A stretch of 46,426 nucleotides of DNA from Dialister succinatiphilus YIT 11850 (lineage in GTDB: Bacteria > Bacillota > Negativicutes > Veillonellales > Dialisteraceae). The notes beneath the pieces were generated by a model, which searched no databases, was not told the origin of the DNA, and saw nothing but the letters and a program-made list of their open reading frames with translations. Position 1 is the first letter of the stretch. Each line of letters starts with the position of its first letter. A program made the position numbers and the translations under genes. The DNA is taken from contig NZ_JH591187.1 of the NCBI RefSeq assembly GCF_000242435.1, positions 1,109,615 to 1,156,040 on the forward strand. The letters are read 5' to 3'. This document shows, one piece after another, positions 37,150-46,426 of the stretch.

Positions 37150-38427
37150 TTATTTCAGAACGGAGGGCAGCCAGGTGGCAATGCCTGGGACGAAGCAGAG
37201 GAGGGCGATTTCCAGGACCATAATCACTGCAAATGGCGCGGCCCCTACGATGATGTCCTGAATGGAGCTGTCTTCGCTGATGCCTTTGATGACGAAGAGG
37301 TTCATGCCTACCGGCGGTGTGATGAGGGCCAGTTCCATGTTGATCAGGAGCACTACGTTGAACCAGATGGGGTCAAAGCCCAGGGCTTTGATAATCGGGT
37401 AAAGCATAGGCAGGGTGATGAGGATGATGGAAACGGTTTCCAGCACGCAGCCCAGGATCAGGAGGACAATGTTGATGCCGATGAGGACGATCCATTTGTT
37501 TAAGTGTCCTTCGGTAACCAGGGACATCAGGGCCTGTGGTACCTGGAGCACGGTTAAGATGTAGCCGAAGAGCATGGCGCCTACCATGATGGCAAAAATC
37601 ATGCAGGATGTTTTGATGGTAGCGCGGAGGATGGCCGGCATGTCTTCGATGGTTATGCTGTGGTAAATGAAAAAGGTAATAATAAGGGCGTACACTGTAC
37701 CTACGGCAGCGGCTTCGGTGGGGGTGAAGATACCGGTGTAGATGCCGCCGATAATGATGACCGGCAGGAGGAGGCCCCAGATGTTTTCCCGAAGGGATTT
37801 CATCTTGGCTTCATGGGAAGCCCTTTCTTCCCGGGGTTTGTTCCAGGAAGCAAAGACGATGTAGGCCACGAAGGCCAGGGTGAGAAGGGCGCCGGGCACC
37901 ACGCCGGACATGAAGAGTTTGCCCACCGATTCATCGGTGATGGTGCCATAGAGAATCATGGGGATGGACGGCGGAATGAGGATGCCCAGGGTGCCGCCGG
38001 CGGCCACGGAGCCTACCACCAGTCTGCGGTCATAGCCCCGTTTGAGCATTTCCGGAATGGCCATGGCGCCGATGGTGACGGCGGTAGCCACAGAGGAGCC
38101 GGAAATGGCGGCGAAAATGGCGCAGGCAAAGATGGTGGCAATGCCCAGGCCGCCGGGAAGGTGGCCCATCCATTTGCTGCCCAGGTCGAAGAGCCCGCTG
38201 CCCACCCGGCCGGTGAGCATGATCTGGCTCATGAGGATGTAAAGGGGCACTGACGTCAGTACGTAGGAGTTCAGTGTCTTAAAGGCAATCACCGGTACCT
38301 GGGAAAGGGTGGACATATCCACGAACTGGATGATACCCAGAATGCCTGCCAGGGACAGGGTGAAGGCCACAGGCATGCCTATAATGAGGAGGGCAATGAT
38401 AAACAGTGCGAAACCTGCCAGAACCAT
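37150..38427 (-). CDS. dctM: TRAP transporter large membrane subunit DctM
   Basis: 425 aa, usual DctM length, with about 11-12 membrane helices of the ion transporter superfamily. It is the channel subunit that moves solute with Na+. Family motifs include SVPLYILMSQIML, FAAISGSSVATAVTIG, GGTLGILIPPSIPMILYG and LITPPVGMNLFVIKG. The ATG directly follows the dctQ TAA (TAAATG) with AAAGGAGGGG upstream, so dctQ and dctM are coupled. It is the last gene of the operon. Confidence 0.95.
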   Translation of the reverse strand: MVLAGFALFIIALLIIGMPVAFTLSLAGILGIIQFVDMSTLSQVPVIAFKTLNSYVLTSVPLYILMSQIMLTGRVGSGLFDLGSKWMGHLPGGLGIATIFACAIFAAISGSSVATAVTIGAMAIPEMLKRGYDRRLVVGSVAAGGTLGILIPPSIPMILYGTITDESVGKLFMSGVVPGALLTLAFVAYIVFASWNKPREERASHEAKMKSLRENIWGLLLPVIIIGGIYTGIFTPTEAAAVGTVYALIITFFIYHSITIEDMPAILRATIKTSCMIFAIMVGAMLFGYILTVLQVPQALMSLVTEGHLNKWIVLIGINIVLLILGCVLETVSIILITLPMLYPIIKALGFDPIWFNVVLLINMELALITPPVGMNLFVIKGISEDSSIQDIIVGAAPFAVIMVLEIALLCFVPGIATWLPSVLK

Positions 38428-38937
38428 TTATTTCCCCTCCTTTTCTTCTTTAAAGAAATCACCCAGAAGATGGTTGATGATTTCCAGAAACAGCAGTACG
38501 AAGCCTATGACCATAAAGGTCTGGGGAATCCACATGGGTACCCGGAGCAGGGAGGGAGAAACCACTCCCATGGCCTGGCTCATGAGCATGTAATTGGTGG
38601 ATTCCGTCATGCATACGTACACAGCGAAAAGGGAAAGAATGGATGTGACAATGTCCAGTCCCCGCTGCAGGGGTCTGGGGAAACGACTGTAGAGAAAATC
38701 AACGGTAATATGCCCGTTCTTCCTCATGGTATAGGCCATGCCGAAGAAGCCGGCCAGCACCAGAAGGTAGGTGGAAATTTCCATGACCCACACCGTGGGA
38801 CTGTGGAAAATACTGCGGGCAATGATTTCATAGCAGATCATGAAGGCTGTCAATAAAATGGCAAGCCCTGCAATGGCTGCGGCAAAATTGGTGATATAAC
38901 CGAGAATGCGGTCATATATATGGTAAATAGAACGCAC
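38428..38937 (-). CDS. dctQ: TRAP transporter small membrane subunit DctQ
   Basis: 169 aa with four membrane helices, the usual DctQ pattern. The segment VWVMEISTYLLVLAGFFGMAYTMRKNGHITVDF is the conserved region between helices 2 and 3. It scaffolds DctM in the inner membrane. GTG start with AAAGGAGGGCTGTCCT. An 820-bp repeat-filled gap separates it from dctP, unusual for a TRAP operon, where spacing is normally short. Confidence 0.93.
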   Translation of the reverse strand: MRSIYHIYDRILGYITNFAAAIAGLAILLTAFMICYEIIARSIFHSPTVWVMEISTYLLVLAGFFGMAYTMRKNGHITVDFLYSRFPRPLQRGLDIVTSILSLFAVYVCMTESTNYMLMSQAMGVVSPSLLRVPMWIPQTFMVIGFVLLFLEIINHLLGDFFKEEKEGK

Positions 38938-38967
38938 AGGACAGCCCTCCTTTGTGAAATAATTTAT

Positions 38968-39015
38968 TAGTGAGCTAGTGGGCTAGTGGGCTAGTGAAAT
39001 AGTGAAATAGTGGGA
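38968..39015 (+). repeat. Octamer tandem array, third copy
   Basis: Six perfect-register 8-bp units: TAGTGAGC, TAGTGGGC, TAGTGGGC, TAGTGAAA, TAGTGAAA, TAGTGGGA. It directly adjoins the start of repeat I. Confidence 0.75.
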
Positions 39016-39757
39016 CATAAAAGGTTCTTAAGATGGATGGGCCCAGGGGGCCGCTCCGCGGCCCGGGTTCAGAGGGTTCAGAGGGTTCGGCCTGCCTTTG
39101 GCAGGCTGGTTCAAAGGGTGGTGGTATCGCCCTTACGGGCGATGAGTATAAAGTCAGCGTTATGAGGGAGGGTTCTTAAGATGGACCGGCCCTATGGGCC
39201 GGAGGGTTCGTAAGTTTGACGGGGCCTTTGGCCCCGAGGGTTGCGGATTGCCCTGCGGGCAATGCTTATAAAGTCAGCGTTACGGGATTGGCTTTCTATG
39301 TCATATGGCATGATAAGCATCACGTCGATCAGCCACCTCCGGTGGCTTTCCCCCCTTTGGTGCCTTACGGCACCACCTTCCCGCCCCGCTGGGAAGCGTG
39401 TCACTTGATTCTCAGTCGTCTACGACTCCCTGCGAATCAAGTTCCCTTGCCACCGCTGAGCGGTGGGACAATAAAGATCCGCAAAGCAATCCCTTCATAA
39501 GCAGCTCACAGCATAACGGAGCTTTATAGTGCCCCCTCATAGAGGGGGGAAAGGTGGTGGCGCCAGCCACCAAAGGGGGGAATTGCATTTCCTCGCCCGT
39601 CAGGGCGGTTGTAAAGGTTTTTTTATAAGAGGGCGCCATCTATAAATTAGAGGCGCCACCACAACCCTCAGCGGCAAAGCCGCTGTCAAACTTAAGAACC
39701 TTCGGGGCGATAGCCCCGTCAAACTTTAGAACCTTCACGCCCTTACGGGCGTGTCCC
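39016..39757 (+). repeat. Mosaic intergenic repeat, copy I (inside the TRAP operon)
   Basis: Left-arm hairpins, two cores (TATAAAGTCAGCGTTA at about 39148 and 39268), CCACCTCCGGTGG and TGCCTTACGGCA hairpins, and a GATTC..GAATC palindrome (about 39408-39440). The junction CTTCATAAGCAGCTCACAGC, right core and right arm follow. It runs up to the dctP stop. Confidence 0.87.
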
Positions 39758-40822
39758 TCAGTCCTTCGCAGCAGCGCTGGCTTTCAGGCAGTCATCTACC
39801 AGTTTCTTACCGAAGTCGCCCTGTTCCTGTTCGAACTTGGCCACTACCGGAGCGGTAGCTTCCTGCCAGAGGTGGATTTCATCCTTCGGAATTACATAGA
39901 CATCCATGCCCTTGTCAGAGAGTTCTTTCAGGCAGCGTTCGTCTTCTGCCTTGGTTTCCTTGCGGATTTCATCCTGGATTTCTTTGGCGGTGTCGGTGAT
40001 GATCTTCTGCTGTTCCGGTGTCAGTTTCTTCCAGGAGTTGTCGTTCATGGATACCAGGAATTCTACGTAGGAGTTGTTGGTCACAGTGAGGTACTTGGCC
40101 ACTTCGTAGATCTTACGGGACAGGATAGCGGTCTGGCCGGAGGACTGGCCGTCGATGGTGCCGTTCTTGATGGCCATGTATACTTCAGAGGAGCTCATGG
40201 TCGTGGGGGATGCGCCGAGAGCCTGGATGATGTCGGCAGAGGTTTCAGAGTAGGAGCGGATCTTCATGCCCTGGAAATCTTCCGGTTTTTCGATTTTCTT
40301 CACGTTGTTGCAGAACTGTACGTAGCCGTAGTCTGCCCAGATCAGCGGATGAACGCCTTTCTTTTCCATTTCCTGGTTCAGTGCCTTGCCCAGGTCTCCG
40401 TCCAGTGCATTATCTACAGCGGAATAGGAGGTGAGGACGAAAGGCATATCCAGTACTTTCAGTGCCGGCACTACCATGGACCAGCGGGCGGTGGAGTTCA
40501 TGCCGATATCCAGGCCGCCGCTCATGAGGGCGTCGTTCATGTTCTGGTCGTTATACAGCTGGCCTGCCGGATAGACTTTGATGTCGATCTGGCCCTTGGA
40601 TCTTTCGTTTACTTCTTTGGCAAATTTTTCAACGCTCTTGGACAAATGATGTTCTGCAGGAAGCTGGTAAGCCAGCTTCAATTCCACTTTCTGTCCATTG
40701 CCGGATGCAGCGGCCTGTTTCTGATCGCCGCCGGACATACCGCAGCCTGTCATCACGCCTGCAATGGCAAGGGCTGCTAAACCTGCTAAAACTACCTTAT
40801 GACTTCTCTTAAACATACCCAT
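39758..40822 (-). CDS. dctP: TRAP transporter solute-binding lipoprotein DctP
   Basis: 354 aa. The signal peptide ends in a lipobox (GVMTGC), so it is a lipid-anchored extracytoplasmic binding protein. The DctP fold is recognised from LAYQLPAEHHLSKSVEKFA, GQLYNDQNMNDAL, MPFVLTSY, the GMKIRS arginine that contacts the substrate carboxylate, and NGTIDGQSSG. ATG at 40822 follows AAAGGAGG by 8 bp. It is first in the operon, downstream of a T-box, so the ligand is likely an amino acid or a related carboxylate such as a 2-oxo acid. Confidence 0.94.
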   Translation of the reverse strand: MGMFKRSHKVVLAGLAALAIAGVMTGCGMSGGDQKQAAASGNGQKVELKLAYQLPAEHHLSKSVEKFAKEVNERSKGQIDIKVYPAGQLYNDQNMNDALMSGGLDIGMNSTARWSMVVPALKVLDMPFVLTSYSAVDNALDGDLGKALNQEMEKKGVHPLIWADYGYVQFCNNVKKIEKPEDFQGMKIRSYSETSADIIQALGASPTTMSSSEVYMAIKNGTIDGQSSGQTAILSRKIYEVAKYLTVTNNSYVEFLVSMNDNSWKKLTPEQQKIITDTAKEIQDEIRKETKAEDERCLKELSDKGMDVYVIPKDEIHLWQEATAPVVAKFEQEQGDFGKKLVDDCLKASAAAKD

Positions 40823-40896
40823 AGTGAAATCCTCCTTTAATAAAAATCATTTGTGTTCCCCATTTCAAATCAAGCTGTACCAGCCTGCCAAACTAC

Positions 40897-40932
40897 AAAA
40901 AACGCCCTGATTGATTAAAATCAACCAGGGCG
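40897..40932 (-). terminator. T-box terminator
   Basis: CGCCCTGGTTGAT and ATCAATCAGGGCG arms (one G-U), 4-nt loop, followed by six U, 75 bp before dctP. Confidence 0.95.
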
Positions 40933-41157
40933 TCACATCTACGCGGTACCACCTCGCACTATACTCATGCGGCTTTGTAACGGTGCCAAACGCCATATCT
41001 TACTCTGTTCAGATACAGGACTTGCGGACGACTCTGTGAGGACCTCCTGCTGCCTTCCACCCTGCGGCAGCTCTCTGTAAGAAAGCCGGTTCACTCGCTT
41101 CCGTTCCTTGTCTTTCATGCACAAGTGTGCTGTGAAGCTTTATTCAAAATTGAAGTT
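40897..41157 (-). promoter_or_regulatory. T-box riboswitch leader of the TRAP operon
   Basis: Reads on the minus strand from about 41157. Stem I has the AGAGAGCTGCC / GGCAGC distal arm with the GGGTGGAA loop. The T-box GGTGGTACCGCG is at 40942-40953, with UGGU for tRNA ACCA pairing (discriminator A). A strong terminator follows. The internal loop of stem I reads TCACAGAGTCG on its 3' side. GUC followed by G (41030-41032) is the best specifier candidate, valine, though this assignment is tentative. Uncharged tRNA would stabilise the antiterminator and turn on dctPQM. Confidence 0.9.
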
Positions 41158-41163
41158 GGAAAT

Positions 41164-41192
41164 AGTATACATGGACTCTACCGGTTTGTAAA
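41164..41192 (-). promoter_or_regulatory. Promoter of the T-box/TRAP operon
   Basis: Minus strand: TTTACA (41187-41192), 17-bp spacer, TATACT (41164-41169). Confidence 0.8.
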
Positions 41193-42417: not shown

Positions 42418-43812
42418 AGGGACACACCTGCGGTGTGAGGGTTGACGGGGCTTTGGCCCGAGGGTTCTTAAGGTTCTTAGGATTGACGGCCCTTTGGGCC
42501 GAGGGTTGTGGTGGCGGCTTCGCCGCAGAATTTTAAAAAAGGGGCACGGCTTCGCCGCGGGTTGTGTAAAAGGGTTGTGGAAAAAGGTTATTAAGATGGA
42601 TGGGCCTTCGGCCCAAGGGTTCGTAAGATACTTAAGGGGAAGGTTCTTAGGATTGACCGGCCCTATGGGCCGGAGGGTTCGTAAGTTTGACGGCCCTGCG
42701 GGCCGAGGGTTGTGGTATCGCCCTTACGGTGCACAGCGAACACATTTTGCACTATGCGAACTGGATTTGTAAGGGAGCATCAGCGACCCGAAAATCCAGT
42801 GAGTCAGTGACAGCAGTGGATGAAGGAGCGCTAGCGACGCGCAAAATGTAGTGAGTCGTTTCCCCTTTAGGGGGCGATGAGTATAAAGTCAGCGTTACGG
42901 GATTGGCTCTTTGTGTCATATGGCATGAAAAACAATTCTGCTGATTGGCTCGCTACGCTCGCCTCCCCCTATCCGGCTTCGCCGGACTTCCCCCGCAAGC
43001 GGGGGGAAGAATAAAACACCTCGAAACATTCTCTTCATAAATGGCTCTACAGTAAGCACGGGTTATAGTGCCCCTGTGGAGGTCCTGCATGGGACCTCCA
43101 AGTGGGGCGAAGTAAGGCGCCTAGCCTGCCCATTAAGGCGCTTTCCTTTTGCCGCCCCACCGAACTGCGGGGGTGGCAAAGGAACTGGATTCATAGGGGA
43201 GCCCCGCGACCCGCGAATCCAGTGACATGCTTCCCACCGGGTGGCAAGGGAACTTGATTCGCAAGGAGCCGTAGGCGACTGAGAATCAAGTGACACGCTT
43301 TCCAACGGGCAAGGTGGTGGCGCCAGCCACCAAAGGGGGAAAACACCGGAATGGTACGCGAAGTATATGACTCGCTGTTTTTTCCCTCATATCTCTCGTT
43401 TCCCCTTGAGGGGAATTCCCGCGCAGCGGGAAAGGGTGTACGAGGTAAAGCACCGATTTGATACTCTATCGTTTTCCTGACCGCCAATCGGCAGCCTCCC
43501 TCGCCACCTCATTGTCCTCTCCCCCCCTGCAAGCAGGTGGCACTCGTTTTAATAAGTGCAGTTGTAAAGGTTTTATCATAAGAGGGCGCCTTCTATAAAT
43601 TAGAGGCGCCCACCACAACCCTCGCCCCTAAAGGGGAAACGACTCACTATGATTTGTGCGTCGCTTTGCTCCTTCAAATCATGTTCGCTGTGCACGCCGG
43701 AGGCGCGTCAAACCTAAGAACCTTCGGGGCGATAGCCCCGTCAAACTTTAGAACCTTCACGCCCCATAGGGGCGTGTCCCCGAGAGGCGCCCGAACCCTC
43801 AAGCCCAGGCAG
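42418..43812 (+). repeat. Mosaic intergenic repeat, copy J (longest, 1.4 kb)
   Basis: Opens with GACACACCTGCGGTGTG. The core TATAAAGTCAGCGTTACGGG is at about 42882, displaced by inserted palindrome modules at 42730-42870. It also has GGATTC..GAATCC and GATTC..GAATC palindromes at 43185-43300 and the extra module at 43345-43500. The right core is near 43585. Another GATTTG..CAAATC palindrome (43645-43690) is inserted in the right arm. The 1.66-kb space between the dehydrogenase and radical SAM genes holds only this and the two promoters. Confidence 0.87.
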
Positions 43813-46217: not shown

Positions 46218-46426
46218 GGACACGCCTGCGGTGTGAAGGTTCTTAAGATTGACCGGCCGTTGGCCGAAGGGTTCGTAAGTTTGACGGGGCCTTTGGCCCC
46301 GAGGGTTATGGATTGCCCGTAGGGCAATGCTTATGAAGTCAGCGTTACGGGATTGGCTTTTTGTATCATATGGTATGATAAGCACTACGGTAATCAGCCA
46401 CCTCCGGTGGCTTTTCCCCCCTTTGG
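46218..46426 (+). repeat. Mosaic intergenic repeat, copy K (cut by window end)
   Basis: GACACGCCTGCGGTGTG hairpin, left arm (GACCGGCCGTTGGCCG, GACGGGGCCTTTGGCCCC), core TATGAAGTCAGCGTTACGGG at about 46330 and CCACCTCCGGTGG, then the window ends. Same orientation as all other copies. Confidence 0.85.

Follow-up and report, generated by a model that had tools for sequence, protein, structure and literature searches.

Why should a T-box leader, an element whose specifier names an amino acid, stand in front of a TRAP transporter, and what does that transporter bring into the cell? The question is posed by the window, the 46,426-nucleotide stretch of the Dialister succinatiphilus YIT 11850 genome that was analysed, in which all three TRAP subunits, DctP, DctQ and DctM, occur together. 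We conclude that the importer probably brings in a precursor of valine and leucine, not an ordinary dicarboxylate. The whole reading that we favour, a valine T-box-controlled importer of 2-isopropylmalate that would feed LeuC, LeuD, LeuB and a carbon-carbon lyase, we hold with a probability of roughly 0.45. The features of the locus are as follows.

37150-38427, minus strand: dctM, TRAP large permease (PF06808, E 2e-106; TIGR00786, 415 > 268 bits)
38428-38937, minus strand: dctQ, TRAP small permease (PF04290, E 5e-29)
38938-39757, minus strand: repeat-rich spacer, dctP to dctQ (about 40 bp only in a congener)
39758-40822, minus strand: dctP, TRAP solute-binding lipoprotein, 354 aa (PF03480, E 9e-86; TIGR00787, 236 > 175 bits)
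40901-40934, minus strand: intrinsic terminator hairpin, 15 pairs (hairpin call, RF00230 positions, covariation)
40923-41117, minus strand: T-box leader, Stem I to antiterminator (RF00230 and orthologous leaders)
40953-40942, minus strand: GGTGGTACCGCG (sequence)
40948-40951, minus strand: UGGU bulge pairing with the tRNA acceptor end ACCA (sequence; tRNA-Val(GAC) ends ACCA)
41025-41028, minus strand: lower Stem I helix, 3' strand UCCG (pairs with 41103-41100, covariation)
41030-41032, minus strand: specifier codon GUC, valine (position rule; homologous column)
41100-41103, minus strand: lower Stem I helix fixing the register, 5' strand CGGA (covariation)
41164-41192, minus strand: sigma-70-type promoter, TTTACA-17-TATACT (consensus match)

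As read from the sequence, the minus strand from 41117 to 40923 is a complete class-I transcriptional T-box leader 5' of dctP-dctQ-dctM. The covariance model RF00230 aligns to it over its full length (1-219 of 219; 69 bits, E 6.4e-15). Although this score lies below the Rfam gathering score of 93, the shortfall is typical of the genome (2.5 Mb, 99.95% complete), because 22 of the 36 full-length T-boxes in this T-box-rich genome share it, and the orthologous leader of a congener scores 93.4. The promoter is believable by position alone, since about one such match would be expected by chance in a stretch of the window's size. By position, the 5' half of the terminator doubles as the 3' half of the antiterminator, and this shared strand marks the two structures as mutually exclusive; the terminator also covaries when 25 homologous leaders are aligned. 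A chance or misread T-box is excluded by the full-length match, by the presence of a T-box at seven of seven orthologous systems and by covariation. The sequence-only reading had described a full leader before dctP, and its promoter, Stem I, UGGU bulge and terminator were all found on the minus strand.

The amino acid named by the leader was called by the rule that the specifier codon lies one base 5' of the lower Stem I helix, with the position of the helix anchored at the start of the covariance-model match; a matching positional rule has been described by TBDB (PMC7778990). Across the 25 homologous leaders this helix (41103-41100/41028-41025) is paired in 100% of cells and shows changes on both sides at three of its four pairs, and sliding the helix partner abolishes the pairing. 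Applied to all 36 T-boxes of the genome, the rule gave the expected codon in 14 of the 14 cases whose downstream gene encodes a synthetase or is recognisably biosynthetic: thrS ACC, cysS TGC, serS and serC TCC, pheS TTC, trpE and trpD TGG, ileS ATC, valS GTC, glyQS GGC, leuC CTC, and ATG for the methionine genes metH, metA and metB/C (targets recognised from translations, leuC by NCBIfam). The acceptor end points the same way. The genome encodes tRNA-Val(GAC) at C2:625751 with discriminator A73, whereas its tRNA-Ser and tRNA-Asp have G73 and end in GCCA, so that UGGU suits a valine tRNA but neither a serine nor an aspartate tRNA. Serine frames (UCG, AGU), aspartate and other specifier frames are ruled out by the covarying helix together with the discriminator base. 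Both the GUC valine specifier and the match of UGGU to a discriminator A, as first proposed for this leader, are therefore upheld, the register now being fixed by covariation in the aligned leaders.

Several further T-boxes were noticed along the way. Tandem T-boxes reading CUC (Leu) and then AUC (Ile) precede livH at L035/L009 (C1:21834-22177). YkvI-family membrane proteins stand behind Ile and Leu T-boxes at L006 and L014, which suggests that these proteins are branched-chain amino acid transporters. Two Cys-type T-boxes lie about 560 bp apart at L018/L012 (C2:734758-735544), the second of them leading into the gene of a uroporphyrinogen-decarboxylase-like protein, which one would hardly expect to be governed by cysteine. 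Finally, L013 and L032 have a second antiterminator-terminator unit directly 3' of a full T-box (livJ; valine-controlled lyase).

The pairing of T-box and transporter is conserved. Orthologous DctP is found in seven of the 12 genomes of the family (54-100% identity), and a T-box lies upstream of the TRAP system in all seven; its specifier is GUC in the four genomes of the window's genus and CUC in the three of a second, sister genus, where a single operon consists of the T-box, then a lyase gene, then dctPQM. A wider search with this lyase as query, in which 380 genomes of the class (Negativicutes) were covered and the surroundings of the matches then read, showed that 17 additional genomes from five other families have a lyase-dctP-dctQ-dctM operon. 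A T-box precedes 16 of these 17 operons, that of genome G022 being without one, and two more T-box-lyase loci run off contig ends. The specifier is CUC in 18 of the 18 T-boxes read at these wider-class loci, and the homologous column holds CUC in 21 of the 25 leaders (seven from the family, 18 from other loci); AUC appears in none of the 25, which disposes of a citramalate/isoleucine route. In genome G329, one operon reads T-box-leuA-leuC-leuD-leuB-lyase-dctP-dctQ-dctM, with leuA, leuC and leuB exceeding their equivalog cut-offs. Because the 18 wider-class and three sister-genus T-boxes all read CUC, the leucine specifier is probably ancestral, and the window's genus would have changed it to valine by a single base (CUC to GUC).

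The leader of the window groups with those of the lyase-TRAP operons and brnQ (support 0.97), and this group nests in a branched-chain T-box clade (0.85) apart from valS, ileS and leuC, a placement that excludes inheritance of the leader from a neighbouring synthetase or from valS. The leaders of the genome's branched-chain transporters fall in the same clade; Leu-, Ile- or Val-type T-boxes precede five livJ-type binding proteins, livH, brnQ and two YkvI-family transporters. One might therefore suppose that the cargo is branched-chain amino acids as such, or another compound, and that the T-box simply enrols a further uptake system in the branched-chain regulon. We consider this quite unlikely, since the livJ-type, livH, brnQ and YkvI systems already cover amino-acid uptake and since it would leave unexplained why dctPQM shares an operon with the lyase and, in G329, with leuACDB.

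Structural modelling from 27 sequences gave a predicted DctP with the DctP fold (pLDDT 85.7; a model from six sequences reached only 45). Its best fold match is 4p47 (Z 37.5, rmsd 2.0 over 313 residues), and the protein shares about 30% identity with the closest DctPs of solved structure. These matches name no ligand because the matched TRAP binding proteins carry many different ones, and the family name "C4-dicarboxylate TRAP" is no test of the ligand either. At the position after Gly-Phe where the best solved relatives have Arg or Lys, 22 of 22 family DctPs have Val; as judged from sequence, this residue would go well with an aliphatic ligand, yet it costs a positive charge that a dicarboxylate might need. 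Of the DctP relatives that carry a name in the lists of sequence and structure matches, none is a 2-oxo-acid binder. The spacer between dctP and dctQ contains one weak terminator-like site, no more than chance predicts. Shared short repeats fill intergenic regions of the window (39121-39733, 42451-42908, 43311-43755, 46268-46414 and others), one example being AAGTCAGCGTTACGGG with nine copies; one repeat block lies between dctP and dctQ in this genome, whereas a congener has none there.

The lyase offers a second handle on the substrate. It belongs to the isocitrate lyase/PEP mutase superfamily and is petal-death-protein-like. The motif WPKRCGHM is invariant in 16 of 16 lyases, so the K-[KR]-C-G-H active-site motif is present. 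Among solved structures the petal death protein (1zlp, E 6e-66) is the best match, outranking methylisocitrate lyases and 2,3-dimethylmalate lyase, and the lyases of this genome (264.6 bits) and of G329 (279.5 bits) both miss the 354.4-bit cut-off of the prpB equivalog TIGR02317. The petal death protein accepts 2-alkylmalates. Lu et al. 2005 (cited in PMC7609661) present it in their title as a lyase for alpha-hydroxy/alpha-keto acids. Within the family the lyase is present in exactly the same seven of 12 genomes as the TRAP system. In the window's genus it is encoded at a separate locus (C2:62563-63477 in the present genome), behind its own GUC T-box in four of four genomes, and it falls in a sister clade of the operon lyases, beside stand-alone lyases with no TRAP genes or T-box nearby. 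Because of this placement the same reaction is not to be assumed for the window-genus lyase, and the chance that its reaction may differ counts against our main reading. Alternatively, the operon lyase could cleave another 2-alkylmalate, for example 2-isobutylmalate, directly to 2-oxoisocaproate for leucine, with the valine-controlled version in the window's genus acting on 2-isopropylmalate. Each T-box would then match the 2-oxo acid released: Leu on the lyase-TRAP operons, Val on a different lyase clade and Met-type on another. This division of labour strikes us as very unlikely, however, as it does not explain why leuCDB is retained without leuA, and 2-isobutylmalate-type compounds are less common than 2-isopropylmalate.

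Two other settings of such lyases were observed. In genome G007 (L193:6328-9774), a T-box reading AUG (Met) heads a run of four genes, for a MetQ-like lipoprotein, a 4Fe-4S protein, an unknown protein and, last, another lyase of this superfamily; this Met-type control also counts against our main reading. In large-genome Negativicutes (L186, L187, L190, L194, L195), LeuCD-like pairs (37-48% identity) lie near lyase paralogues, an arrangement that resembles the dimethylmaleate hydratase and dimethylmalate lyase of nicotinate fermentation.

The leucine genes connect the transporter and the lyase to a pathway. leuC is found in exactly the seven of 12 family genomes that have the TRAP system and the lyase and is missing from the other five; one such co-occurrence has odds of 1 in 792 if independent, but the genomes are related and the figure describes a pattern, not a p-value. 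A CUC T-box precedes leuC in all seven. In the present genome leuC-leuD-leuB form one run with equivalog matches (LeuC 661 > 611, LeuD 247.8 > 245.9, LeuB 491 > 353 bits). At the level of gene content, the rest of the route is lost: ilvC occurs in none of the 12 family genomes (14 of 14 controls were positive in the same search), ilvD in one of the 12, which has no TRAP system, and LeuA of either type in none of the seven TRAP-bearing genomes, in a search that could detect type-II LeuA (G011). Because LeuA is missing, LeuC, LeuD and LeuB make sense only if 2-isopropylmalate comes by another way. The genome has a single class-IV aminotransferase, which most resembles D-amino-acid transaminases and scores below every cut-off; by sequence it is no clear branched-chain transaminase, which counts against our main reading at the final transamination step. 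Both 2-isopropylmalic acid and 3-isopropylmalate have been reported from human stool (PMC7898679).

The missing LeuA could also be read in the opposite direction. Imported 2-oxoisovalerate would be transaminated to valine, while the lyase, running in reverse, would condense it with abundant gut acetate to 2-isopropylmalate, thus replacing LeuA before LeuCDB. Isocitrate-lyase-type reactions are reversible, a shared precursor of valine and leucine would explain both specifiers, and LeuA is missing just where the lyase and LeuCDB remain. A DctP that has lost the customary second basic residue would suit a monocarboxylate, and relatives with LeuA would gain little by splitting isopropylmalate. Nevertheless, a lyase under a valine T-box would be made during valine shortage and would then drain the valine precursor, and LeuA-containing relatives keep the lyase-TRAP operon; we judge import of 2-oxoisovalerate somewhat unlikely. 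The stricter proposal that the family lyase is an acetate-dependent isopropylmalate synthase, forming leucine from an imported branched 2-oxo acid and free acetate in place of acetyl-CoA, with the importer under a valine/leucine T-box, seems to us unlikely. Such substitution for LeuA is in any case not general among the relatives, those in other families keeping a genuine LeuA of one or other type. The sequence-only reading had expected an amino acid or its carbon skeleton as cargo, and the linkage to the lyase and leucine genes, together with the T-box specifiers, supports this. Its more specific suggestion of a branched-chain 2-oxo acid was right in kind, as a carbon skeleton, and is one of two live options, but it is not the best fit given CUC in 21 of 25 leaders, the lyase operon, leuACDB in G329 and the retention of leuCDB without leuA.

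The ligand that fits best is 2-isopropylmalate, because it is malate bearing an isopropyl group, is the substrate of LeuCDB and would by superfamily-type cleavage yield 2-oxoisovalerate and acetate; such a cleavage would in turn account for the valine T-box on the lyase. A branched C4-dicarboxylate is favoured because leucine control appears ancestral, because the lyase and, in one genome, leuACDB share the operon, and because, within the family, every genome with the TRAP system retains leuCDB but has none of leuA, ilvC and ilvD. Against this interpretation, splitting 2-isopropylmalate would look futile for leucine in prototrophic relatives with ilvC and LeuA. From its anatomy we infer how the switch would act: the transcription-terminating T-box would read uncharged tRNA-Val(GAC), and when valine is short the anticodon would pair with GUC in Stem I and ACCA with UGGU, so that the antiterminator forms and dctPQM is transcribed. 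The transporter is one part of a conserved module with the petal-death-protein/PrpB-like lyase and LeuC, LeuD and LeuB. We infer that its ligand is most likely 2-isopropylmalate, perhaps with other 2-alkylmalates; being a branched C4-dicarboxylate, this compound falls in the class that DctP proteins bind. LeuCDB would convert the imported compound to 2-oxoisocaproate for leucine, and the lyase would split it to 2-oxoisovalerate and acetate, the former for valine. In the window's genus, which is without ilvC, ilvD and leuA, this import route would replace de novo synthesis, with a leucine T-box on leuCDB and valine T-boxes on the lyase and TRAP genes.

T-box specifiers belong to the small set of sequence features from which the end product of an unknown transporter can be read, and TRAP systems are a class whose ligands are hard to predict; here the specifier and the comparative data connect one of them with leucine genes and a lyase. 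If our interpretation is correct, gut Negativicutes make valine and leucine from leaked intermediates, the isopropylmalates seen in stool, a kind of cross-feeding missed by genome-based auxotrophy predictions. The locus also provides a clear natural case of a single-base change, CUC to GUC, that gives the T-box of one and the same transporter a new amino acid.

With known class-I transcriptional T-boxes (RF00230) the leader shares Stem I, the specifier loop, the AG-rich distal loop motifs, the UGGN bulge and the antiterminator/terminator, but it controls a TRAP transporter. TRAP is not one of the seven transporter families listed under T-boxes by Wels et al. 2008 (PMC2494555), and the full-text literature searched, a scope outside which the two main T-box target reviews lie, held no T-box-controlled TRAP transporter; it likewise held nothing direct on isopropylmalate uptake or cross-feeding via TRAP transporters. 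With DctPQM systems of the DctP/SiaP type the window system shares all three subunits and the DctP fold, and it differs in the Val that replaces Arg/Lys after Gly-Phe and in its genetic link to leucine synthesis. As in the known leucine pathway, LeuC, LeuD and LeuB are equivalog-level matches under a leucine T-box, yet the family keeps them without leuA, ilvC or ilvD. Finally, the lyase has in common with the petal death protein, 2,3-dimethylmalate lyase and PrpB the WPKRCGHM motif and a best solved match to 1zlp, but it falls under the prpB cut-off and is linked to a TRAP importer and to leucine and valine T-boxes.
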